64,000 nucleotides of DNA from Yoonia vestfoldensis SKA53 (GTDB taxonomy: Bacteria > Pseudomonadota > Alphaproteobacteria > Rhodobacterales > Rhodobacteraceae). Both the position numbers and the translations under genes were made by a program. This document shows, piece by piece, positions 26,664 through 62,385 of this stretch (positions are counted from its first letter, which is position 1; each line of letters starts with the position of its first letter). The stretch lies in NCBI RefSeq assembly GCF_000152785.1, contig NZ_CH672414.1, forward strand, positions 2,338,443 to 2,402,442. The letters are read 5' to 3'. The notes under the pieces were generated by a model that had not been told where the DNA came from, did no database searches, and was given only the letters and a program-made list of their open reading frames with translations.

Positions 26664-27804
26664 GGATTGGGAACACGGAGGCTTCGGCCTTTATATCCAT
26701 TGGCCATTTTGTCAGGCCAAATGCCCCTATTGCGATTTCAATTCGCATGTTGTGACGCAGATCGACCACAAGGCATGGGAATCTGCTTATCTAAGCGAAA
26801 TCAGTAGGTTGGGTGCCGAGACGGAAGGCCGTATCCTACGGTCAGTGTTCTTTGGGGGCGGCACACCCAGCATGATGGACCCCGCGGTTGTCGATGCGGT
26901 TCTAACACGGGTGCGCGCGACTTGGCCGATGGCCAATGATATCGAGATCACGCTGGAAGCGAACCCGACCTCGGTTGAGGCCGAGCGGTTCGCCGGATAT
27001 CGTGCCGCAGGTGTGAACCGTGTCTCTATGGGGATACAGGCGCTCAATGATCCCGATCTGAAAGCATTGGGGCGTTTGCACGGGCGAGATGAGGCCTTGC
27101 GGGCTTTTGAAATCGCACGGGGCGTATTTGATCGGGTGAGTTTTGATTTGATCTATGCGCGGCAGGGGCAAACATTGGCGGCGTGGGAAGCTGAATTGGC
27201 TGAGGCATTGAGCCTCGCCGTGGATCATCTGTCGTTGTATCAGCTGACGATCGAGGATGGGACGGCCTTTGGTGATCGTTATGCCGCTGGCAAGCTGCGG
27301 GGATTGCCAGATGATGATGCAGCGGCGGATATGTATGCGCTGACACAAGAGGTTTGCACGGCGCATGGGTTTGCAGGCTATGAAGTATCCAACCACGCGC
27401 GGGCCGGATGTGAAAGCATCCATAATCAGATTTATTGGCGCTATGGTGATTACGCAGGGATCGGACCAGGTGCGCATGGGCGGCTGACACTGGGTGGTCA
27501 CCGCCATGCGACCGAGGCAGAGCTATCGCCGCTGGCGTGGTTGTCTCAGGTCCGCAAGATCGGCAATGGCGACCTGACACGCAGCATGCTGGATGATGCG
27601 GCACAGGCGACGGAACGCCTGTTGATGGGAATGCGATTGACCGAAGGTGTGATGTTGGAGCGGCTTGATATCGCAGCTTTATCAAGCAAGATCAGTTATC
27701 TATCTGACATAGGCATGGTGGAAATTGAACAGGGCAGATTGCGTGCGACAGCGGCGGGCCGACCCGTGCTGAATGCTGTCTTGCGGGTTTTGCTAGAGGA
27801 TTAA
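26644..27804 (+). CDS. hemW: HemW, coproporphyrinogen III oxidase-like radical SAM heme chaperone
   Basis: The ~386-residue protein has the radical SAM cysteine motif CPYCDFNSH (preceded by FCQAKC), giving CxxxCxxC, then FFGGGTPSMM and the HemN-like core ending with the C-terminal HemN domain. HemW transfers heme to respiratory proteins, while true HemN oxidises coproporphyrinogen. The CxxxCxxC lacks the fourth cysteine of HemN. No ATG exists in frame near the start; TTG at 26644 or 26656 must be used, overlapping the rdgB end. Confidence 0.88.
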   Translation: MQAVLAEDWEHGGFGLYIHWPFCQAKCPYCDFNSHVVTQIDHKAWESAYLSEISRLGAETEGRILRSVFFGGGTPSMMDPAVVDAVLTRVRATWPMANDIEITLEANPTSVEAERFAGYRAAGVNRVSMGIQALNDPDLKALGRLHGRDEALRAFEIARGVFDRVSFDLIYARQGQTLAAWEAELAEALSLAVDHLSLYQLTIEDGTAFGDRYAAGKLRGLPDDDAAADMYALTQEVCTAHGFAGYEVSNHARAGCESIHNQIYWRYGDYAGIGPGAHGRLTLGGHRHATEAELSPLAWLSQVRKIGNGDLTRSMLDDAAQATERLLMGMRLTEGVMLERLDIAALSSKISYLSDIGMVEIEQGRLRATAAGRPVLNAVLRVLLED

Positions 27805-28688
27805 TTCCCAGCCAAGGCGCGCAGCAAATCGTCAAGCTGATCCAGGGATTTGTAACTGATCGAGATCTTACCGCCTTCATCCCCCGCCTTGTGATCAATC
27901 GTGACCTTCATGCGCAACGTCGCTGAAAGTTCATTCTCGATCTGGATCGTGTCAGGATCTTTGGGTACTGGCGCACCCGTTACTGAGCGACGTTTTAGTG
28001 CCGGACCTTTCTTGGCGAGGTTTTCAGCCTCGCGCACCGAGAGTTTCCGCTGGATATATTCGCGCGCGAGCATCACCGCCTGCGGATGGCCGACAAGCGT
28101 GCGGGCATGACCAGCCGTCAGCGCGCCGGAGACAAGGTAGCCTTGCACCTCTTCGGGCAGCGATAGAAGCCTAAGAAGATTGGCAATATGGCTGCGGCTT
28201 TTGCCCAGAGCGGTCGCCATCTGGTCTTGGGTATGGCCAAATTTGTCCATCAGCTGACGATAGCTGGCAGCCTCGTCAACCGCATTGAGATCGGCCCGCT
28301 GGATGTTTTCGATAATCGCTACTTCGAGAACTTCTGTATCGGTGTAATCGCGCACCAGCACAGGAATGTCATGCAGTTTAGCTATCTGAGCGGCACGCCA
28401 GCGGCGTTCACCTGCGACAATCTCGTAGCTGTCAGGGTCTTGTGGCGACAACCGAACGATCAGAGGCTGGATGATCCCCTTTTCAGCAATGGATGCTGCC
28501 AATTCGCGCAACGCGTCTTCGGCGAAGGTGCGGCGGGGCTGGTCAGGGTTGGGGCGGATGCGTTCGACCGGGACGATCATGTCAGGTCGTGGAGGGCTGG
28601 TCGTGGATGCTTCGGGCTGGCCGACATCGGACATCAGGGCAGACAGGCCCCTGCCCAGACCGCGCGGATTTTTGGTGCTGCGTGCCAT
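27801..28688 (-). CDS. parB: Chromosome partitioning protein ParB
   Basis: The 295-residue protein starts MARSTKNPRGLGRGLSALM, typical of chromosomal ParB. It has the CTP-binding motif GERRWRAAQ, the ENIQRADLNAVDEA region, a central helix-turn-helix (TQDQMATALGKSRSHIANLLRLL) and a C-terminal dimerisation domain. ParB binds parS sites and slides as a clamp, driving origin segregation with ParA. Two perfect parS sites lie 1.4 and 3.3 kb upstream. The longer frame to 28811 would overlap parA and is not used. Confidence 0.96.
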   Translation of the reverse strand: MARSTKNPRGLGRGLSALMSDVGQPEASTTSPPRPDMIVPVERIRPNPDQPRRTFAEDALRELAASIAEKGIIQPLIVRLSPQDPDSYEIVAGERRWRAAQIAKLHDIPVLVRDYTDTEVLEVAIIENIQRADLNAVDEAASYRQLMDKFGHTQDQMATALGKSRSHIANLLRLLSLPEEVQGYLVSGALTAGHARTLVGHPQAVMLAREYIQRKLSVREAENLAKKGPALKRRSVTGAPVPKDPDTIQIENELSATLRMKVTIDHKAGDEGGKISISYKSLDQLDDLLRALAGN

Positions 28689-28692
28689 GATG

Positions 28693-29490
28693 CTAGACCC
28701 TTTGTTTCTTTGATTTCTTGATAACTTCGCGGGCCAATGCGCGGTAGGCGATACTGCCTTTGGACGACGAATCATAGGTGAGTACCGGCATGGCAAAAGA
28801 CGGAGCCTCACTGAGGCGGACGTTGCGCGGGATCACTGTCTTGAACACCATGTCACCCATGTTATCGCGCGCGTCTTGTTCCACTTGCAGCGACAGGTTG
28901 TTCCGACCGTCATACATTGTAAGCACAATCCCTTCGATCCGAAGATCAGGGTTAGCGGACTGGCGGACGTCACGGACGGTCAGAATGAGTTGCGATAGGC
29001 CTTCGAGGGCGAAGAATTCGCTTTGCAGCGGAACAAGGATGGAGTGGGCAGCGACCATCGCATTCACCGTCAATATGTTGAGTGATGGTGGGCAATCGAT
29101 CAATATATAGTCGTATCCGGTGACAGATTGAAGCGCATTGCGCAGCAGAAAACTGCGTTTCTTGTTGTCCAGCAGTTCCATATCAGCAGAGCTGAGGTCT
29201 GTTGTCGCCGGGACGATCATCAAACCGGCAACATTTGTAGGCTGCGTCGCCTCCAACACTGTCGAATCACCAGACAGGACGTCGTATGTTGTGATGTCGC
29301 GCTGATCTGTCGCAACACCAAGACCTGTAGAGGCGTTTCCCTGCGGATCAAGGTCGATCAACAGGACACGTTTTTTCAGCTCTGCCAACGCCGCGCCTAG
29401 GTTGATCGTGGTGGTTGTTTTGCCCACCCCACCCTTTTGATTCGCGATAGCGATGATTTTTGGCCCAGCTTCTGCGATATCAAGCGGCAC
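28693..29490 (-). CDS. parA: Chromosome partitioning ATPase ParA
   Basis: The 265-residue protein has the deviant Walker A KGGVGKTTTTINLG near residue 20, DLDPQGNASTG and the DCPPSLNILTVNA segment of ParA/Soj ATPases. It forms ATP-dependent gradients that move ParB-bound origins. It starts with GTG 29490, preceded by AAAGGA, which overlaps the rsmG end by eleven bases. parB follows after four bases. Confidence 0.96.
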   Translation of the reverse strand: MPLDIAEAGPKIIAIANQKGGVGKTTTTINLGAALAELKKRVLLIDLDPQGNASTGLGVATDQRDITTYDVLSGDSTVLEATQPTNVAGLMIVPATTDLSSADMELLDNKKRSFLLRNALQSVTGYDYILIDCPPSLNILTVNAMVAAHSILVPLQSEFFALEGLSQLILTVRDVRQSANPDLRIEGIVLTMYDGRNNLSLQVEQDARDNMGDMVFKTVIPRNVRLSEAPSFAMPVLTYDSSSKGSIAYRALAREVIKKSKKQRV

Positions 29491-30094
29491 GGCATATCCT
29501 TTGAATCAAGAGCAGTCGCGCCTCAGGATCAGTCAAACTAGGCTGCTCTTCAAGCTCAAAGAGCCAATTCTGACGCGCCTCGGCAATTTCTGTGCTGGCC
29601 TGCCTGCCTTTGTGCATGATCGCGAGGCCAGCGGGGTGAATGTGCTGCATAATAAGCGGTAACAGAAACGAAACGCTGCCCAAGGCGCGCACCGAAACAA
29701 CATCTGCGCCAGCTGGCGGGACCTCTTCGATACGATCTGCAAGCACACGCGCCGTCAGGCCCAGCTCTCGAATGGCGGTTCGCAAAAAAGCCACTTTGCG
29801 CTGGTCACTTTCGATCAAAACAAACTGCGCATCCGGATGGCGCGCCTTGCCAAGGATCGCAGCAACGATACCCGGAAATCCACCACCACTACCAATATCC
29901 AGCCAGAGGTGAAAATCATCAGGCGCATGGCGGTAGACCTGCACGGAGTCAACAACGTGACGATCCCATATCATAGCATGAGAACTGGCGCTGATCAGAT
30001 TAATCTTGGGCGTCCATTTTAGGACAAGCGCCGCGAAGGCCTGCAAATCTGCCAATGTTTCACGTGAAACATCGATGCCACCAACGTCCACCAT
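29480..30094 (-). CDS. rsmG: 16S rRNA (guanine527-N7)-methyltransferase RsmG
   Basis: RsmG (GidB) methylates G527 of 16S rRNA. The core shows DIGSGGGFPGIVAAIL for SAM binding and FVLIESDQRKVAFLRTAIRELGL. I choose ATG 30094, four bases after the mnmG stop, giving 204 residues starting MVDVGGIDVSRETLADL; longer starts at 30124 or 30142 overlap mnmG. A perfect parS palindrome is embedded in the codons for VSRET. Confidence 0.93.
   Translation of the reverse strand: MVDVGGIDVSRETLADLQAFAALVLKWTPKINLISASSHAMIWDRHVVDSVQVYRHAPDDFHLWLDIGSGGGFPGIVAAILGKARHPDAQFVLIESDQRKVAFLRTAIRELGLTARVLADRIEEVPPAGADVVSVRALGSVSFLLPLIMQHIHPAGLAIMHKGRQASTEIAEARQNWLFELEEQPSLTDPEARLLLIQRICRAA
30056..30071. other. parS centromere site 1 (inside rsmG)
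   Basis: TGTTTCACGTGAAACA is a perfect 16-bp palindrome identical to the parS consensus used by chromosomal ParB in many bacteria. It is read in rsmG as V-S-R-E-T near the N-terminus. Proximity to parAB and the candidate origin supports function. Confidence 0.9.
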
Positions 30095-30098
30095 TTCG

Positions 30099-31979
30099 TC
30101 AGGTCCCAGTCGCTGCCAGCGCATGTCGCTTGATTGCGCCAATCAACAGCATCAGTGCGGCTGGCGTCATCCCTTCTATCCGGCCCGCCTGCGCAATGGA
30201 GACTGGCCGGGTTTTTTGCAGCTTGGTGACCAGTTCTGTCGATAACCCGCGCACACCCAGATAATCGAGGCCGTCCGGGATCAACTGCGCCTCGTCCCGC
30301 TCCAAGGCTGAAACGTCCCTTTCCTGGCGCAAAATGTAATGCGCATAAAGCGCATCTTTCTTGACCTGCTCCTGTATCTCCGGCGCAATATCTGATGTTT
30401 CTGGCGAAATTTGCATAAGTTGTGCAAAGCCAAAGTCCGCTAGCGCCAAAGCTTCCAATGCAGTTTTGCGTGGACCATCGGGATTCAGCTGAGCGCCAGC
30501 TGCAGTAATATCGCGTGCGGACAGATAGATTTTTCCGAGCCGTGACTTTGCATCGGTAATCTTATCCATCTTGGCGCTGAACACTGACCACCGTAGCTCA
30601 CTAATACAACCGATTGCGCGTCCGCGCGCTGTCAGGCGTTGATCCGCATTATCCGCACGCAGCGACAGCCGGAATTCTGCCCGTGAGGTGAACATGCGGT
30701 AAGGTTCCGATACACCGCGAGTGATCAAATCATCAATCATCACGCCGATATAAGATTCCCGCCTGCTGAACAGAACGGGCTCTTTATCAAGAGCCGCCGC
30801 GGCGGCATTCAGCCCTGAAACCAGTCCTTGTGCTGCAGCTTCCTCATATCCTGTCGTGCCGTTAATCTGCCCGGCAAGGTACAACCCCGGCACATCACGT
30901 AATTCCAACGTTGGCCGTAGGGCGCGTGGATCGACATAATCGTATTCTATGGCGTAGCCTGGCTGCAAGATGGTGGCGTTTTCTAGCCCATGGATGGACC
31001 TGACATAATCCAGCTGCACATCTTCGGGCAGTGATGTCGATATCCCGTTCGGATAAATTGTGTGATCGTTCAAGCCTTCGGGTTCCAGAAAGATCTGATG
31101 CGATGTTTTGTCGGCAAAACGCACAACTTTATCCTCGATCGAAGGACAATAGCGCGGCCCAACCCCGTCTATATGGCCGCCATACATTGCCGATCGTCCA
31201 AGGTTTGCACGAATAATATCGTGTGTTTGCTCATTCGTGTGGGTAATCCCACAATTGACCTGCTGCGCAAAGACAGATTTCGACAGAAAGGAAAACAACA
31301 CCGGATCATCGTCAGACGGCTGACTTTCCAAAATATCCCAGCGAATGGTCCGCCCGTCCAGGCGTGGTGGTGTACCCGTTTTTAACCGTCCCATCGGCAA
31401 ACCGAAGCCATCCAGCCGTTCGGCCATATGCACAGACGGATCATCACCCATACGCCCACCGGGGCGGGACACCTCACCGATGTGAATAACGCCACGCAGA
31501 AAGGTGCCCGTCGTCAGGATGACGTTTTTTGATGTGACCATCTGGCCGTCGCGTAGATAAATACCGGCGACGCGGTCTCCGTCCATCACCAAATCAGTGG
31601 CTTCACCTTCCAGAATTGTCAGATTGGGTTGCGCGGCCAGCACCGCCTGCATCGTGTCACGATAAATCGCCCGATCCGTTTGCGCCCGCGGTCCCTGAAC
31701 GGCGGGGCCCTTTTTTCGGTTCAGCAAGCGGAACTGAATCCCCGCCCGATCAGCAACCTGGCCCATCGCGCCATCAAGCGCATCAATCTCACGGACAAGA
31801 TGACCCTTGCCCAATCCACCGATTGCAGGGTTGCAAGACATGACGCCAATTGACCGACGCGTCAATGTGACCAGCACCGTCCGTGCACCCATGCGCGCAG
31901 CGGCATGTGCAGCTTCGCTACCCGCATGGCCACCACCGATAACGATGACGTCATAGTCATAATGTTTCACGTGAAACAC
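30099..31979 (-). CDS. mnmG: tRNA uridine 5-carboxymethylaminomethyl modification enzyme MnmG
   Basis: The 626-residue FAD protein begins with a dinucleotide-binding motif [22 protein letters not shown]. MnmG-specific motifs include [29 protein letters not shown] and [13 protein letters not shown]. With MnmE it modifies wobble uridines of several tRNAs. It starts with GTG within the second parS palindrome, giving the N-terminus MFHVKH. It is between mnmE and rsmG in the origin block. Confidence 0.96.
31963..31978. other. parS centromere site 2 (at the mnmG start)
   Basis: A second perfect copy of TGTTTCACGTGAAACA. On the minus strand it overlaps all but the first base of the GTG start codon of mnmG and encodes its first residues. 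It lies 1.9 kb from site 1 and about 3.2 kb from the oriC candidate. Confidence 0.9.
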
Positions 31980-34681: not shown

Positions 34682-35131
34682 TCAAAATGGTCGCACGATC
34701 ACAGCCGTCACGATCACGACCATCAAAACCGTCGGCACCTCATTGAACAACCGATACGTCCGTCCAGAGCGTGTGTTTTGCCCTGCAGCAAATTCCTTGC
34801 GGCGCTTTGCCATCCAGCCATGCGCCGCCGTCATCGCCAGTACAGAAACAATCTTGATCCATGACCAAGCAGCACCCCAATCGAAGACGCCCATGGACAG
34901 CAGCACAAGCCCTGCCAGCCACGCTACGATCATCGCCGGATTCATGATCAACCGTAGCAGCTTTTCTTCCATGATCTGAAAGGTCTGATCAAGCTCTGAT
35001 CCCACCGCTGACCTCTCAGCATGATAAACAAAAAGCCGAGGTAGATAGAATAAACCAGCCATCCAGGCGATCACAGCCATGATGTGCAGCGCTTTGATCC
35101 AAGGATACAGGCTGAAATACAGGTCGGGCAT
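34682..35131 (-). CDS. hemJ: Protoporphyrinogen IX oxidase HemJ
   Basis: This 149-residue integral membrane protein has four hydrophobic helices and the HemJ/UPF0093 signature IKALHIMAVIAWMAGLFYLPRLFVYH, with the conserved His16 and later LRLIMNPAMI and WIKI. HemJ oxidises protoporphyrinogen IX to protoporphyrin IX, the substrate shared by ferrochelatase and magnesium chelatase. It is the first leftward gene of the origin block and adjoins the oriC candidate. Confidence 0.92.
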   Translation of the reverse strand: MPDLYFSLYPWIKALHIMAVIAWMAGLFYLPRLFVYHAERSAVGSELDQTFQIMEEKLLRLIMNPAMIVAWLAGLVLLSMGVFDWGAAWSWIKIVSVLAMTAAHGWMAKRRKEFAAGQNTRSGRTYRLFNEVPTVLMVVIVTAVIVRPF

Positions 35132-35290
35132 CGGATACTCGCTTTGACTGGGTCAGACCTCTTAAATAATTATATAGATAGAAAGAAAAGATGATGTTGA
35201 ATTTAGTGCATCATTTTCCTGTGGTTTCTTTTTTCATCCGCAGACTTATCAACAGCACCACACGCCTGAAAATAAACATCGCTGATAATC

Positions 35291-35308
35291 CATATTTAAA
35301 AAAATATG
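35291..35308. repeat. AT-only inverted repeat in oriC candidate
   Basis: CATATTT and AAATATG are separated by AAAA. This is the most AT-rich spot in the region and a plausible place for initial duplex unwinding. Confidence 0.5.
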
Positions 35309-35309
35309 T

Positions 35310-35329
35310 TCGTAACCAGCATGTTACGA
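35310..35329. repeat. Inverted repeat TCGTAAC-N6-GTTACGA in oriC candidate
   Basis: Seven-base perfect arms separated by six bases, directly after the AT-rich repeat. It could be a protein-binding site of the origin; no known factor is recognised. Confidence 0.5.
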
Positions 35330-35396
35330 GACTTTTTTCGCCGCGCTATCAAACTAACATGTGCCTTGACAGCTGCTCACTCAACGATTCGTCCAC

Positions 35397-35436
35397 AGCC
35401 AGTACTTATACTTTCCCACGGTGGAAAAGACTGGCT
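35397..35436. repeat. Long imperfect hairpin in oriC candidate
   Basis: Outer arms AGCCAGT and ACTGGCT enclose an inner near-palindrome CTTTCCCACGGTGGAAAAG. Together they could form a two-step hairpin of about 40 bases between the AT-rich half and the DnaA box near maf. Confidence 0.45.
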
Positions 35437-35532
35437 GGTCGCGCGAACAAGCCTAGGTTCTTCCACAGCCTGGCGGTAACAGGGTTTTCAAGCTCGGCTT
35501 CCGGCCCCATTGTGACCACGTTTTCCATCGGG

Positions 35533-35541
35533 TTATCCACA
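35533..35541 (+). other. Perfect DnaA box overlapping the maf start codon
   Basis: TTATCCACA matches the strong DnaA-box consensus; its last base is the A of the maf ATG. It is the only perfect match I see in the candidate origin. Confidence 0.65.
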
Positions 35542-36140
35542 TGCAAGACAAGATTATCCTCGCGTCCGGTTCAGCGATCCGTGCAGAACTACTCCGTAAA
35601 GCCGATGTTGCCTTCACAGTGCAGATCGCACGGATAGACGAAGACGCTGTGCGCGCATCCTTGCAAGCTGACAACGCGTCACCGCGCGACATCGCGGATA
35701 CTTTGGCTGAACTCAAGGCGCAAAAGGTGGCCTCGAAACACCCTGATACGCTGGTTATCGGGTGTGACCAGATCCTTGCTCTTGATCAGGATATTCTAAC
35801 TAAGCCGGACACAAAGGCCCAAGCATTGGATCAGCTACGCACGTTGCGCGGGCGCAAGCATCAGCTGCTCTCAGCCGCTGTTATCTATGGCGATGGCAAG
35901 CCGCTTTGGCGTCACGTCGGGACCGTGCGCCTTCACATGCGTGACGCCTCCGATGACTATCTCGCCGCCTATGTCGACCGAAACTGGGACAGTATCCGGC
36001 ATGCTGTCGGTTCCTATAAGCTCGAAGAAGAAGGCGTGCGTCTTTTTACACGCATCGAAGGAGATTATTTCAATGTTCTTGGCCTGCCTTTGCTTGAACT
36101 CTTGTCATATCTGACGCTTCGCGGAACATTGCAGACATGA
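35541..36140 (+). CDS. maf: Maf-like nucleoside triphosphate pyrophosphatase
   Basis: The 199-residue protein starts with ILASGSAIRAELLRKADV, close to the Maf signature (LASxSxxRxxLL), and has DTLVIGCDQIL and VGSYKLEEEGVRLF. Maf proteins hydrolyse dTTP, UTP or modified nucleotides. It overlaps aroE by four bases and begins the rightward maf-aroE-coaE-dnaQ unit beside the origin. Confidence 0.93.
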   Translation: MQDKIILASGSAIRAELLRKADVAFTVQIARIDEDAVRASLQADNASPRDIADTLAELKAQKVASKHPDTLVIGCDQILALDQDILTKPDTKAQALDQLRTLRGRKHQLLSAAVIYGDGKPLWRHVGTVRLHMRDASDDYLAAYVDRNWDSIRHAVGSYKLEEEGVRLFTRIEGDYFNVLGLPLLELLSYLTLRGTLQT

Positions 36141-37542: not shown

Positions 37543-38229
37543 ATGCGCGAAATCGTTCTCGACACCGAAACCACCGGCTTTGAACCCAGCGAAGGCGACC
37601 GCATCGTTGAAATCGGCGCTGTCGAACTGATCGGCCATATGCCCACGGGCAGGACCTATCACCAATATATCAACCCCCAGCGGACCATGCCTGCCGAAGC
37701 CTTTGCCGTGCATGGCTTGGGTGATGATTTTCTGGCCGATAAACCGTTGTTCAAGGATATCGCCGACGATTTTCTGACCTTCATCGGTGATGCGAAACTG
37801 GTTATCCACAACGCCGCCTTTGATATGAAATTCCTGAATGCCGAACTTGGTTGGCTCCATAAACCTGCCTTGCCGATGAATCGCGCAGTTGACACCCTGA
37901 TGATCGCGCGGCGCAAGTTTCCGGGCTCGCCTGCGTCGCTTGATGCGCTGTGCCGCCGCTTTGGCATCGACAATGCAGCGCGGACCCTGCACGGCGCATT
38001 GCTCGACAGTGAAATTTTGGCAGAGGTTTATCTGGAACTGATTGGTGGCCGTCAGCCCGATTTCGCGCTGGCCCAAGGCAGCGCAGATAGCACGCAAAAA
38101 AATGGGGCTGCATGGCGCGCGGGTCCGCGTCCCGCACCCTTGGCATCGCGCCTAACAGCCGAAGAAACCGCCGCCCATACCGCCTTTGTCAATGCGATGG
38201 GCGACGACGCAGTCTGGAAACGCGCTTAG
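37543..38229 (+). CDS. dnaQ: DNA polymerase III epsilon subunit (3'-5' exonuclease)
   Basis: The 228-residue protein has Exo I motif VLDTETTGFEPSEGDRIVEIGAVEL at the N-terminus, Exo II NAAFDMKFLNAEL and Exo III with HGALLDSEILAEVYLEL. It proofreads replication as part of the pol III core. It converges with secB, the two stop codons overlapping by four bases. Confidence 0.95.
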   Translation: MREIVLDTETTGFEPSEGDRIVEIGAVELIGHMPTGRTYHQYINPQRTMPAEAFAVHGLGDDFLADKPLFKDIADDFLTFIGDAKLVIHNAAFDMKFLNAELGWLHKPALPMNRAVDTLMIARRKFPGSPASLDALCRRFGIDNAARTLHGALLDSEILAEVYLELIGGRQPDFALAQGSADSTQKNGAAWRAGPRPAPLASRLTAEETAAHTAFVNAMGDDAVWKRA

Positions 38230-38732
38230 TTGACGACCTTCTTGTCGGCCTCGGCACGACGGGCCAATTCGGAACGGTAAAGCGCAAGGAAATCAATGGT
38301 TTCGAGGTTCAGCGCAGGGAAACCGCCGTCGCGGGTCACGTCGCTGACAATCCGGCGCAGGAACGGAAAGGTGATGCGCGGGCATTCGATCAGCAGATAG
38401 GGATGCATCTGTTCTTCTGGCACACCTTCGACGTGGAACACGCCGGCATATTCGATTTCCAGAACGAACAAGGGTTCGCCTGCGGCCTTTGTCTTGCTCG
38501 TGATGTTCAGCTTGGTGATCACTTCGAACTGGTGGTCCGCTGTGCGCTTGCGGGCGTCCAGATTGACCTGCACTTGCACTTCGGGCTGTGCATCACCCTT
38601 GACACCCTTTTGCGCCAGAATGTTTTCGAACGACATATCGCGGATATATTGCGCCAGAACACGGCTGCTGATCTGCTGGGGCTGGGGCGCTGCACCGGCG
38701 GCTGGCGCGGCGTTGTCGGGTGTATCAGTCAT
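38226..38732 (-). CDS. secB: Protein-export chaperone SecB
   Basis: This 168-residue acidic protein has the SecB core: YIRDMSFENILAQKG, the LNITSKTKAAGEPLFVLEIEYAGVF strands and PYLLIECPRITFPFLRRIVSDVTRDGGFP. SecB keeps preproteins unfolded for SecA. The alanine/proline-rich N-terminus is usual for alphaproteobacteria. Confidence 0.95.
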   Translation of the reverse strand: MTDTPDNAAPAAGAAPQPQQISSRVLAQYIRDMSFENILAQKGVKGDAQPEVQVQVNLDARKRTADHQFEVITKLNITSKTKAAGEPLFVLEIEYAGVFHVEGVPEEQMHPYLLIECPRITFPFLRRIVSDVTRDGGFPALNLETIDFLALYRSELARRAEADKKVVN

Positions 38733-41043: not shown

Positions 41044-41627
41044 TGCGCAGGCCCCGCCATCTGTCATCTGAGGAACGCGCGTTGTGGGATCGTGTCAAAG
41101 GTACGACCAAGCCCATGTCCCCCGATGCGAAACCCGATCCTGCCCCGCTGCCCCCCGTGCGCAAGACACCTGTCATGCCGCGTGATCCTCTACCCGATTT
41201 TCAGGTTGGCCAAAAGGCAGATGCCCACCGGCCCAACGACCTGCTGCCCAGCATCACACACCGTCTGGTCAACGCGCCAGTCAACATGGACAGCAAATCA
41301 TTTGGCAAGATGAAACGCGGCAAGCTGGTACCAGAGGCGCGGATCGACCTGCATGGCATGACCATGGCGCAGGCGCATCCGGAATTGCTGGCCTTCATAT
41401 TGGGTTCGCATACGCTGGGGCGCAGGCTGGTGCTGGTGATCACCGGCAAGGGTAAAGACCGCGACGACGGCGGCCCGATCCCCACGCGCAACGGCGTGTT
41501 GCGCCATCAGGTGCCACAATGGATGGCCCTGCCACCCTTGGCGCGTACGATCCTCCAAGTGACACCCGCGCATCTGAAACACGGTGGGCATGGGGCCTAT
41601 TACGTTTACCTACGCCGCGGCCGCTAA
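41043..41627 (+). CDS. Smr/MutS2 C-terminal domain protein
   Basis: The 194-residue protein has a proline-rich N-terminus and a C-terminal Smr domain: RIDLHGMTMAQAHPELLAF, LVLVITGKGK and GGHGAYYVYLRR. Smr domains are endonucleases or RNA-processing modules. It is coupled to mltA and its 3' end overlaps the convergent MFS gene by 18 bases. Confidence 0.9.
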   Translation: MRRPRHLSSEERALWDRVKGTTKPMSPDAKPDPAPLPPVRKTPVMPRDPLPDFQVGQKADAHRPNDLLPSITHRLVNAPVNMDSKSFGKMKRGKLVPEARIDLHGMTMAQAHPELLAFILGSHTLGRRLVLVITGKGKDRDDGGPIPTRNGVLRHQVPQWMALPPLARTILQVTPAHLKHGGHGAYYVYLRRGR

Positions 41628-42907: not shown

Positions 42908-44206
42908 TCACAGCACGTAGCGGCTGACATCCACCGAACGCGACAATTCCCCAAGATGCTTTTCCACGAAATCGGCGTCGACGGCGATTTCTTCGCCGCC
43001 ACGGTCGGGCGCGTTAAATGACAAATCCTCGAACACGCGTTCCATGACGGTATAAAGCCTGCGTGCGCCGATGTTTTCCACGGCTTCGTTGACGTCAGCG
43101 GCGATCTTGGCCAGTGCCTTGATCCCATCTTCGGTGAAAGTAACGGTCACCTGTTCGGTCTGCATCAGCGCGGAATATTGCAAGGTTAGCGCATTGTCGG
43201 TTTCCGTCAGGATGCGCACGAAATCGCCTTCTGTCAGGGCGCGCAATTCCACGCGGATCGGCAAACGGCCTTGCAATTCGGGCAACAGGTCGGACGGTTT
43301 TGCAACATGGAACGCGCCGGATGCGATGAACAGGATATGGTCGGTCTTGATCGGCCCATGTTTGGTCGACACGGTCGTCCCTTCGATCAGCGGCAGCAGG
43401 TCGCGCTGCACGCCTTCGCGGGATACATCGGCACCGCGCGCGTCGGCACGGGCGCAGACCTTGTCGATCTCGTCCAGAAACACGATGCCGGATTGTTCGA
43501 CCGCCTCCAATGCGGCCTTGGTGACGGTTTCATCGTCGAGCAGTTTGTCCGCCTCGTCCGCGATCAGCGCGTCATAGCTGTCGGCAACCGTCATGCGTTT
43601 CTTGACTGTGCGTCCGCCCATCGCCTTGCCGAATAGATCGCCCAAGTTCATCATGCCGCCCGGCTGTCCGGGAATCTCGAATCCGCCCATCGGGTTGGTA
43701 GTGTCGGTCAGCTCCAGTTCGATCACGGTGCTGTCCAATTCGCCTGACTTCAGCTTGCGGCGAAACATCTCGCGCGTGCCTTCGCGTGCGTCAGTGCCGG
43801 CGACAGCGGTGATGACACGTTCCTCGGCAGCTTCGCGGGCTTTGGTGCGCACGTCTTCGCGCATATGTTCGCGGGTGTCCAGAATGGCGGTATCGACCAG
43901 ATCTCGGATGATCTGTTCCACGTCGCGGCCGACATAGCCGACCTCGGTGAATTTGGTCGCCTCGACCTTGATGAACGGTGCGCGCGCCAGTTTTGCCAAG
44001 CGGCGCGAGATTTCGGTTTTCCCGACACCGGTGGGACCGATCATCAGGATATTCTTGGGGTACACCTCGTCGCGCAGGTCATCGCCCAATTGTTTGCGCC
44101 GCCAACGGTTGCGCAATGCGACAGCAACGGCGCGCTTTGCCTCGGCCTGTCCAATGATGAAACGGTCCAATTCGGATACAATTTCGCGGGGGGTCAGGTC
44201 TGTCAT
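42908..44206 (-). CDS. hslU: ATP-dependent protease ATPase subunit HslU
   Basis: The 432-residue AAA+ protein has [17 protein letters not shown], the I domain, [14 protein letters not shown] (Walker B) and the sensor motifs, ending in the SRYVL-type C-terminus that docks into HslV. HslU unfolds proteins for the HslV peptidase. Here a membrane protein gene separates hslV from hslU, with four-base overlaps on both sides. Confidence 0.96.
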
Positions 44207-45282
44207 GTCAGTCCTTGGCTAAAAGAAGGGGGAAGTTTGTGCAGTGGAACGAAGCCCGGCATCAGCCGCAAGATGCGGGCGCGGATACGTTCCCAGAACG
44301 CACCCAGCAGCAGCAGGATAATTCCGAGCATCAGCACGGTCAGCGCCGCGCCGTCACCGTCCAGCACCGTGCCTGCCAGCACGACGATATACCCGATTGC
44401 GGCAATCAGGAATGACCGCCGGTCAATGACGATGGCCACGATGGCGAACAGTGTCAGGACAGCCACCAGAATGATGTTGGACCCTGCGGTATCTTGATCC
44501 AGCAGAGACAAAGCGACCGTGTTTACCAATGCCGGTGCCGCAACGACATGCAGCCAGAATCCGTTGGCCGACCGGCGCGTGACACGGTGTGGATCGCTCA
44601 TGTCGAATGCCATCGCTACGGCAAAAACAAGCAGACCCAGCGCCAGTGTGATCCATGCAAAAGGCCCACCCGCCGACAACAAGAACAGGTCACTGATCCC
44701 TGCGATCCGTCCACCCCTGCTGGCGGCGAAAATGATCGCAACGACGAACAGCCCGACCGCGATCATCGCCATGGCAAACGGTACGCGGAACCGCCACCAA
44801 TAGGCCGCAAGTGCGAGGGTGGCGAGGAATAGTGGAAACGGCACGCTAGCATAATCGCCTTGCGCGATCATGAAAGGTTCCGACATAACGGCGATGAACC
44901 CGAATGCTTCATTGGCGGCAAACATCACCGACAGCGCGATGGCGGGTGCCACCATGCGCCGTTTGCGAATGAAATATTCCGACAGCAGCCACAAAAATGC
45001 GGTCCCCGCCAGTGACACGCCCAAAGCGTAATCCTGCAAATTCACGATCCGGTCACCAAGCGCGAGCGTGACCACACCCCACCAGCCTGACGATAGGATC
45101 AGCAGGCCGATCACGATGAAAACCTCGTTAAATCCTTTGAACAATTCGAAAGGTTCGTAACCGGCGCGCAACGCCGCGCGTGCGCCACGGCGGCTGTCGG
45201 CAAGGCTGATCAGCCCTGCGGCTTGCCTTTCCGACAAAAGCCCGCTGCCGACGGCAGCTTTCAGATCGTCGCGGTCGATCAT
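44203..45282 (-). CDS. Multi-pass membrane protein of unknown function (DUF2157-like), between hslV and hslU
   Basis: The 359-residue protein starts with a short soluble segment ([19 protein letters not shown]) resembling the N-terminus of DUF2157 proteins, followed by about ten to eleven hydrophobic helices and a basic C-terminal tail ([14 protein letters not shown]). I do not recognise a function. Overlaps of four bases with hslV upstream and hslU downstream place it in one operon with the HslVU protease, so a membrane-linked or stress-related role is an inference. Confidence 0.65.
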
Positions 45283-45833: not shown

Positions 45834-45934
45834 CGTCACCATCTCCATATCGGTTGTGGTTATATGGCGGCAGCGCACGGGGCAAACAACCCCGCCATCT
45901 TGCCGTCGTTACAACCCAAGGCTAGCGTCATCGC

Positions 45935-46852
45935 ATGAGTATCACCAGTAAAGTTACGTTTTACCTGCACCCCAAGCTGCGCAAGCAAGCCAAAGAGGGG
46001 AACCACAATTTCATCGCGTTGATTGGCAAAGTGCTGACCAATGCCGGACTTACCGTCGCCTTTGACAGTGACGACACCCTTGCACGGCTGCGTGCGCTGG
46101 CCCGGCCGGGGCGCGGGATCTTTCTGATGGACCCGCCTGTCAACAACCGCAGCCTGACACTGCGCCAGACCTATATCACCCCGTTCTGGCATATCGAAAA
46201 ACAGGCGGAACGCTGGGACTGGCCTGTCGCGCATACGCCCTTCGATCCGGCAATGGTCGATCCCAAAAAGGCTGCCAATTTTCAACGGTTCTGGCAAAAC
46301 CGCCTGTTCGGTGACACGATCCATGTGCCGCGCAAGGACGGTTTTGTCTTTGTGCCGTTGCAAGGGCGCTTGATGGAACAGCGGTCGTTCCAGTACTGCA
46401 GCCCGATCGACATGATCCGCACCGTCCTGCGGCATGATCCTGTCCGCCCTGTTATCGCCACGCTGCACCCGTCTGAAACCTATCAGCGCGATGAAGAACG
46501 CGCCCTGGAACAGCTGCTGGCGGAAAATGACCGGCTTTATATCCGCAAGGGCGACCCTGACAGGTACCTGCGCACCTGCGATTACATCGTTTCGCAGAAT
46601 TCCGGCGTCGCGCTTCAGGGGTTCTTTTTCAATAAGCCTGCGATCCTGTTCGGACGGTCCGATTTTCACCATATCGCGCTGAATGTGGCCGACACCGAAG
46701 CACAGGCCGCGTTTGGTGCAGTGACCCGACACGCGCCCGATTTTGCAGCCTATCTCTATTGGTTCTTGCAAATGCAGGCGATCAACGCAGGCAGGCCAGA
46801 GGCGCAAGACCGGATTGCACAGGTCTTGCGCGGCCATGGCTGGCCTGTCTAG
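45935..46852 (+). CDS. Capsule polysaccharide synthesis-like protein
   Basis: The 305-residue soluble protein has no signal peptide. Its C-terminal half resembles capsule polysaccharide synthesis (KpsC/S-type) or related glycosyltransferase proteins: YCSPIDMIRTVLRHDPVRPVIATLHPSE, then CDYIVSQNSGVALQGFFFNKPAILFG, where a sugar-nucleotide-like site would lie. No other surface polysaccharide gene is near, so it is an isolated member. It diverges from hslV and ends three bases from the convergent trxA. Confidence 0.6.
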   Translation: MSITSKVTFYLHPKLRKQAKEGNHNFIALIGKVLTNAGLTVAFDSDDTLARLRALARPGRGIFLMDPPVNNRSLTLRQTYITPFWHIEKQAERWDWPVAHTPFDPAMVDPKKAANFQRFWQNRLFGDTIHVPRKDGFVFVPLQGRLMEQRSFQYCSPIDMIRTVLRHDPVRPVIATLHPSETYQRDEERALEQLLAENDRLYIRKGDPDRYLRTCDYIVSQNSGVALQGFFFNKPAILFGRSDFHHIALNVADTEAQAAFGAVTRHAPDFAAYLYWFLQMQAINAGRPEAQDRIAQVLRGHGWPV

Positions 46853-62170: not shown

Positions 62171-62199
62171 ATTGTCGGTCTTGCCGCCCATAATGTCAA
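62171..62199 (-). promoter_or_regulatory. Candidate ppaA-ppsR promoter
   Basis: Reading leftward, TTGACA (62199-62194) and GACAAT (62176-62171) are separated by 17 bases, about 52 bases before the ppaA ATG. The -35 box is inside PpsR operator 1, so ppaA-ppsR is probably autoregulated. Confidence 0.55.
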
Positions 62200-62211
62200 A
62201 GTAAATTGACA
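62194..62211. promoter_or_regulatory. PpsR operator 1 (TGT-N12-ACA), overlapping ppaA promoter
   Basis: TGTCAAAGTAAATTGACA matches the PpsR/CrtJ consensus TGT-N12-ACA. On the minus strand it contains TTGACA, the -35 box of the likely ppaA promoter. Confidence 0.8.
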
Positions 62212-62317
62212 CAACGCAAAACAAGCTTCCAATTATATGTGATAAATTACTGTTTTATATGTTATTTAATGCCCCCGAAGGGGTTGGGTGGTGATCTGAC
62301 ACATCCTGCAAGATAAG

Positions 62318-62335
62318 TGTAAGTTAAAGTTGACA
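62318..62335. promoter_or_regulatory. PpsR operator 2 (TGT-N12-ACA), overlapping bchF promoter
   Basis: TGTAAGTTAAAGTTGACA matches TGT-N12-ACA and shares its right half with the TTGACA -35 box of the likely bchF promoter. It lies 124 bases from operator 1. Confidence 0.85.
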
Positions 62336-62359
62336 CATGCCCCCAAAGGCTCCTAATCT
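62330..62359 (+). promoter_or_regulatory. Candidate bchF promoter
   Basis: TTGACA (62330-62335) and TAATCT (62354-62359) are separated by 18 bases, 26 bases before the bchF ATG. Repression by PpsR bound at operator 2 would block RNA polymerase directly. Confidence 0.65.
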
Positions 62360-62385
62360 GGGTTCAGTCAATATCGGGAGGCCAC

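Follow-up and report, generated by a model that had tools for sequence, protein, structure and literature searches.

The gap between hemJ and maf at positions 35132-35540 is very probably the single chromosomal origin of replication, oriC, of Yoonia vestfoldensis SKA53. Positions are those of the window, that is, the whole 64-kb stretch of DNA analysed (positions 2,338,443-2,402,442 of a contig holding 3,063,844 of the 3,066,852 bases of the genome). The interpretation, which is based on sequence comparison, is supported by the polarity of the chromosome arms in three chromosomes, by dif-like sites 46-53% of the circle away in five, by parS sites in seven of seven genomes, by origin-type elements that are near-fixed in 91 sequences, and by the correspondence with the hemE-COG1806 interval that carries the origin in other alphaproteobacteria.

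The closest named relatives, judged by this locus, belong to Yoonia/Loktanella (Rhodobacteraceae); Maf shares 94% identity with its counterpart in a Yoonia MAG and 86% with the protein of Yoonia vestfoldensis DSM 16212. As the original prediction had it, the gap is the largest non-coding one in the window: with its 409 bp it tops all stretches outside a greedy set of open reading frames of at least 80 aa. The runner-up in this set, 396 bp at 41044-41439, arises because the greedy choice displaced the Smr ORF. The gap is indeed AT-rich (55.5% A+T vs 40.9% in the window), and the genes do diverge from it on both sides. On the left, parB-parA-gidB-mnmG-mnmE-rho-hemJ are all on the minus strand (7.3 kb); on the right, maf-aroE-coaE-dnaQ are all on the plus strand (2.7 kb). 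The expected neighbour secB is present as well (38226-38732, minus strand). Elsewhere in the window, two long minus-strand ORFs having no Pfam match (44203-45282 and 45860-46837) are located near genes of an AAA ATPase (42908-44206) and an MFS transporter. The gap, its flanks and the elements within it are as follows.

35132..35541, no strand: putative oriC, the whole gap from the hemJ start to the A of the maf ATG
34682..35131, minus strand: hemJ (UPF0093), left flank; PF03653, E 3.7e-59
35541..36140, plus strand: maf, right flank; PF02545, E 1.2e-46
35155..35206, no strand: putative DNA unwinding element, a conserved AT-rich block with the consensus CTTAATAA..ATATAAAAA.AAAGAAAAGATGATGATG
35220..35228, minus strand: putative DnaA box B1, family form TAATCCACA; 3 mismatches in the window, at most 1 mismatch in 38 of 91 sequences
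35234..35242, plus strand: putative DnaA box B2, TCATCCGCA, 2 mismatches; at most 1 mismatch in 9 of 91
35246..35254, plus strand: putative DnaA box B3, TTATCAACA, 1 mismatch; at most 1 mismatch in 36 of 91
35314..35326, plus strand: IHF-like site, pattern WATCARNNNNTTR, 1 mismatch in the window
35389..35397, plus strand: weak putative DnaA box B4, TCGTCCACA, 2 mismatches; at most 2 mismatches in 48 of 91
35406..35430, no strand: conserved block TTATCCTT.CCCAC.GTGGAAAA, with a weak box on the minus strand at 35420
35533..35541, plus strand: perfect putative DnaA box B7, TTATCCACA; exact in 44 of 91, at most 1 mismatch in 80 of 91

The predicted DnaA boxes were recovered, one of them perfect (35533-35541), one with a single mismatch (35246) and five with two mismatches. 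These seven box-like sites with at most two mismatches compare with 1.33 in shuffled sequences, and none of 2000 shuffles reached seven; the gap thus contains a cluster of candidate boxes above chance, as is expected of a bacterial oriC. The last base of the perfect box is the A of the maf ATG. It is the only perfect box of the gap, the left boxes being degenerate in Yoonia vestfoldensis SKA53. By nearest-neighbour energy, the least stable 50-bp duplex of the whole window starts at 35155, and a putative AT-rich unwinding element thus adjoins the boxes, again as in an oriC. Next after the gap in the stability ranking of the window is a very AT-rich, partly non-coding region of low stability at 62171-62385.

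Some box counts recur outside the gap. Within the sampled 39% of the genome, seven further places have an equal count of boxes with at most one mismatch (2 per 410 bp), and in L028 there is an almost equally dense cluster of boxes with at most two mismatches (7 vs 8). A second perfect DnaA box is located inside dnaQ (37802-37810), 2.3 kb from B7; there are 21 exact boxes in the genome, and 2 of the 21 are as close together as this pair.

The pattern WATCARNNNNTTR, which we take to describe IHF sites, occurs with at most one mismatch at the aligned place of 35314 in 74 of the 91 sequences, and no other aligned place reaches more than 8. Matches of this quality are common, 66 in the 64-kb window vs 45.8 in shuffles (about 1 per kb), so that only the conserved position carries weight. 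Of CtrA sites TTAA-N7-TTAA there are none in the gap of the window. At least one is present in 16 of the 91 gaps, or 0.18 vs 0.036 per gap in shuffles (with the last base of the gap left out). This exceeds the shuffled level, yet makes no rule for the family. Among the 91 sequences, GANTC (CcrM) sites showed no enrichment (1.46 per gap vs 1.52 in shuffles), and DnaA-trio runs were not convincing (mean longest run 2.5 vs 1.9 in shuffles). The four inverted repeats of the original prediction did not hold up: a single pair having perfect 8-bp arms within 60 bp compares with 0.31 in shuffles, a count reached by a fraction of 0.20 of the shuffles, and the listed stems have no conservation in the alignment, except for a short CCCAC-n-GTGG element. 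Being at chance level and mostly unconserved, the repeats were given zero weight.

For the comparison with relatives, 110 loci were found via Maf, 30 of them, the locus of the window included, among the matches listed (56 genomes matched) and the others being the best 80 of 514 places. The divergent hemJ-gap-maf layout is observed in 104 of the 110, duplicates included. Four of the six remaining loci (L120, L148, L158, L163) end at contig ends, and two (L131, L133) have no hemJ there. Removal of 13 duplicates left 91 distinct sequences (30, and 61 from the best-80 set), weighted to Yoonia and Loktanella. In each of them there is a box with at most one mismatch, and two or more are present in 77; the mean is 2.75 per gap vs 0.13 in shuffles. 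The mean consensus frequency is 0.73 at 35157-35206, 0.72 at 35216-35256, 0.69 at 35404-35432 and 0.79 at 35521-35541. It is lower around the IHF-like site (0.58), at 35366-35400 (0.51) and in five spacers (0.39-0.44). Third codon positions at the ends of the flanking genes (60 bases each) give 0.55 and 0.50. A profile built from the 91 sequences, that of the window included, matches 35132..35541 at E 3.8e-55 and has no second match in the 1.2 Mb (39%) of the same genome searched.

The distances between the elements are near-fixed. Between anchors at 35194, 35220, 35246, 35317, 35389, 35417 and 35533 the median steps are 26, 26, 71, 71, 28 and 117 bp, with standard deviations of 1.9, 1.0, 3.7, 2.3, 0.2 and 1.4, respectively; the left edge, from hemJ to 35194, is looser (standard deviation 6.9). 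These values come from an alignment that minimises gaps, and the near-constant total length provides independent support for them. In the best-80 set, where hemJ is present in 74 loci, the gap has a median length of 405 bp, an interquartile range of 402-408 and a full range of 381-592. The ratio of interquartile range to median is 0.015 vs 0.057-0.31 in five neighbouring gaps. In base pairs the range is 6 vs 3-7 in four comparison gaps and 18 in one, so that the constancy is exceptional only relative to the length of 405 bp; the dnaQ-secB gap (median 6.5 bp) is not comparable for length spread. The sole strong length outlier is an alphaproteobacterial MAG (L169) with a hemJ-maf gap of 592 bp.

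One could suppose that the gap is nothing other than the divergent promoter and regulatory region of hemJ and maf, the DnaA boxes acting in transcription. Two divergent genes do need promoters within it, and a TTGACA hexamer at 35366-35371 is moderately conserved. However, 409 near-constant base pairs are long for two promoters. Moreover, L131 (Marimonas) and L133 (Marivita) have no hemJ between rho and maf but still match the gap profile at that place (E 5.7e-35 and 6.2e-22, respectively), although neither locus was used to build it. Thus the element is not there merely to drive hemJ. As the parS, skew and dif geometry described below would also be left unexplained, we consider a purely transcriptional role very unlikely.

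The large-scale organisation of the chromosome is consistent with oriC in this region. Two sequence patterns were followed, the octamer GGGCAGGG, which is of the KOPS type, and that of the dif half-site. The latter has two exact matches in the genome, at 955,881 and 1,709,305; the full 18-mer at 955,881 is common to two relatives (G027, G032). Arms were counted from the gap to this dif-like site, the right arm running in the plus direction. According to the original prediction, the cumulative GC skew of the chromosome should switch sign at the gap. The difference between the arms stood: a positive GC skew was observed for 16 of 19 20-kb stretches of the right arm vs 1 of 19 of the left (Mann-Whitney p 6e-6), these being 38 of 59 stretches, with 19 infill stretches, two adjoining the window and the window itself left out. 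The same holds in G032 (10 of 10 vs 0 of 10 by arm) and G028 (7 of 9 vs 3 of 11). The orientation of the octamer agrees, with plus/minus counts by arm of 45/6 vs 7/50 in this genome, 24/0 vs 1/13 in G032 and 22/1 vs 3/30 in G028. On the terminus side, 23 of 23 copies at 833-955.4 kb are on the plus strand and 22 of 25 at 957-1067 kb on the minus strand, the flip bracketing the dif-like palindrome at 955,881. On the origin side the orientations are mixed over 2.32-2.42 Mb, with no sharp flip at the gap.

The placement of the switch is coarse, however. The local minimum of cumulative skew is 33 kb to the right of the gap in this genome (2.407 Mb), 33 kb to the right in G028 and 88 kb to the left in G032 (contig coordinates). 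Since the minima miss the gap by these distances, skew indicates the neighbourhood rather than the gap, and we rejected it as a means of exact placement, its resolution being about 100 kb. At that resolution the skew minimum, which the original prediction would have been contradicted by finding elsewhere on the chromosome, does coincide with this region. The gap-to-dif-like distance is 46.3% of the circle in this genome (not 50%), 52.9% in G028, 48.4% in G016, 52.0% in G027 and 51.0% in G032, each long contig being taken as a closed circle. The G028 site was chosen among three candidates, and the G027 contig has a second one. The pattern thus has a match in six of seven genomes, and the five measured are all near-antipodal (46-53%); G021 has one dif-like site and is outside these five, and the search in G031 gave no match. 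In Dinoroseobacter shibae, the accessible part of one report describes outer membrane vesicle DNA peaking at dif near ter (PMC7901474), which is of relevance to the terminus only. In sum, the leading-strand skew switches in the region of the gap, localised only to about 100 kb, and the dif-like site lies roughly opposite.

Elements of the partition system lie beside the gap.

30056..30071, no strand: parS, exact 16-mer, 5.1 kb from the gap
31963..31978, no strand: parS, exact 16-mer, 3.2 kb from the gap
27801..29490, minus strand: parB and parA (Pfam ParB_N, HTH_ParB, AAA_31), part of the minus-strand run adjoining the gap

The parS 16-mer TGTTTCACGTGAAACA has only two exact copies in the genome, both beside the gap. 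Seven genomes were chosen for their long contigs, and the number of exact copies is two in every one of them, in the same layout, about 3.6 and 5.5 kb from the maf start on the hemJ side. The two sites are about 1.9 kb apart in all seven; they fall within or at the ends of coding sequence, at the gidB/mnmG junction and the 5' end of mnmG.

Alternatively, the true origin could lie elsewhere in the 2.36-2.41 Mb zone of the skew switch or near dnaA (2.109 Mb), the gap being a reservoir for DnaA binding. Consistent with this are the cumulative-skew minimum at 2.407 Mb, the distance of about 264 kb between dnaA and the gap, and the exact box in dnaQ at 37802. However, parS and parAB adjoin the gap itself, the offset of the skew minimum varies in both size and direction between genomes, the 39% of the genome searched contains no second place matching the gap profile, and the synteny with the Caulobacter origin indicates the gap. 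An origin at another place is therefore extremely improbable. That the gap encodes a small RNA or a short protein can be practically dismissed: a 148-aa ORF at 35191-35637 is mechanically present, but we reject it as spurious because it has no Pfam match and a plus-strand frame is open across its gap portion in only 4 of 91 sequences, and an Rfam scan up to E 1 gave a sole match, far below the gathering score and inside maf.

With oriC as the preferred reading, we compared the gene order outside the genus. In Caulobacter, according to the part of the report available, hemE and COG1806 flank the origin, which contains an AT-rich region, DnaA boxes and an IHF site (PMC1914354). Neighbourhoods of maf were taken from nine of 24 relatives of the same class outside the genus. 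In eight of the nine, hemJ is 2.2-5.4 kb upstream of maf; the ninth (L218) is cut off by the end of its contig. A scan for families covered ten ORFs from six such loci. In these maf neighbourhoods, hemE was found in L212, L213, L215 and L219, hemH in L215, L217 and L219, and the COG1806 family (PF03618) in L213 and L215, while the one ORF scanned from L214 had no family match. Clusters of boxes with at most one mismatch are present in the hemE-COG1806 gaps of L213 (six boxes, 607 bp) and L215 (four, 587 bp), and in the hemE-maf gap of L219 (six, 290 bp). Five other intervals scanned contain 1-5 such boxes, and none of the five has a cluster of this kind in an identified gap. Of the 24 relatives, 11 have PF03618, nine of them within about 250 bp of maf; in G036 it is 2 kb from maf and in G054 on a separate contig. 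It was not found in this genome nor in any of the 36 genomes of the genus (this one included; a few are incomplete), and hemE of this genome is at 1,611,528, about 761 kb from the gap. Outside the family the gap profile has one weak match (E 0.015), in L219 between maf and hemJ, either within the hemE-maf gap or at its edge; we do not rely on it.

The gap is thus not positioned between hemE and COG1806, but it occupies the corresponding place in the gene order. The simplest account would be that the origin stayed in place and that hemJ and maf came to lie at its edges through the departure of hemE, hemH and COG1806.

The arrangement suggests how initiation may proceed. DnaA would bind B7, the perfect box adjoining maf, as well as the weaker boxes towards the left end, and an IHF-type protein would bend the DNA between them, bringing about a DnaA filament with a geometry set by the near-fixed distances. 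Melting of the AT-rich block (35155-35206) and loading of the helicase would follow, after which two forks would travel towards a terminus in the vicinity of the dif-like site (956 kb). The new origins would be moved apart by ParB, which would load at the pair of parS sites 3-5 kb from the gap. A DnaA-IHF complex dependent on geometry would demand just what is observed, near-fixed spacing along with free spacer sequence. One may go further and propose a rigid-ruler oriC for the Rhodobacteraceae. In such an origin the spacers would change freely, with the distances between the melting block, left boxes, IHF-like site, central pair and maf-edge box held; single boxes might decay, as in Yoonia vestfoldensis SKA53, with the geometry staying; control would be without CtrA in most members; and hemJ and maf would have become the flanks once hemE, hemH and COG1806 left the interval. 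Taken in its entirety, this proposal could equally well turn out right or wrong.

The comparison assigns the predicted start of replication in an abundant marine family to a single interval, about 405 bp long and with defined elements, which can serve as an anchor for origin plasmids, marker-frequency data and genome numbering. It also provides a natural data set in which evolution holds the spacing and the melting block and lets the spacer sequence and single boxes drift.

Ori-Finder predictions of oriC were made for 101 Rhodobacteraceae, Loktanella (now Yoonia) vestfoldensis among them, based on skew, DnaA boxes and proximity to parAB (PMC6699656); the available text of that report describes neither fixed spacing of elements nor an IHF-like site. 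Cumulative skew and partition loci served to locate OriC1 of Rhodobacter sphaeroides, as stated in the accessible part of the source (PMC6315104). Since origins of the family had already been predicted (PMC6699656) and OriC1 located (PMC6315104), the locus is an ordinary origin of known kind and represents expected biology. An experimentally mapped chromosomal origin of Rhodobacteraceae was not found in the literature searched, which was mainly openly accessible main text; nor did the literature text searched contain an account of the near-fixed spacing, the position-conserved IHF-like site or the persistence of the element without hemJ. The added value is in the comparative anatomy of the origin, with the near-fixed spacing of its parts as a useful detail.

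The Yoonia gap appears to share with Cori of Caulobacter crescentus its gene-order position (PMC1914354), an AT-rich block, weak DnaA boxes (PMC4468827) and, as a candidate, a single IHF-type site, as far as the available portions of these sources describe them. In contrast to Cori, it is no longer flanked by hemE and COG1806 and has no TTAA-N7-TTAA CtrA site. The oriC of Escherichia coli has an AT-rich element, an adjoining reverse-facing box, an IHF site and a strong box at the far end. It differs from the Yoonia gap in flanking genes, box sequences and total length, but candidates for the same four parts can be recognised in the latter.
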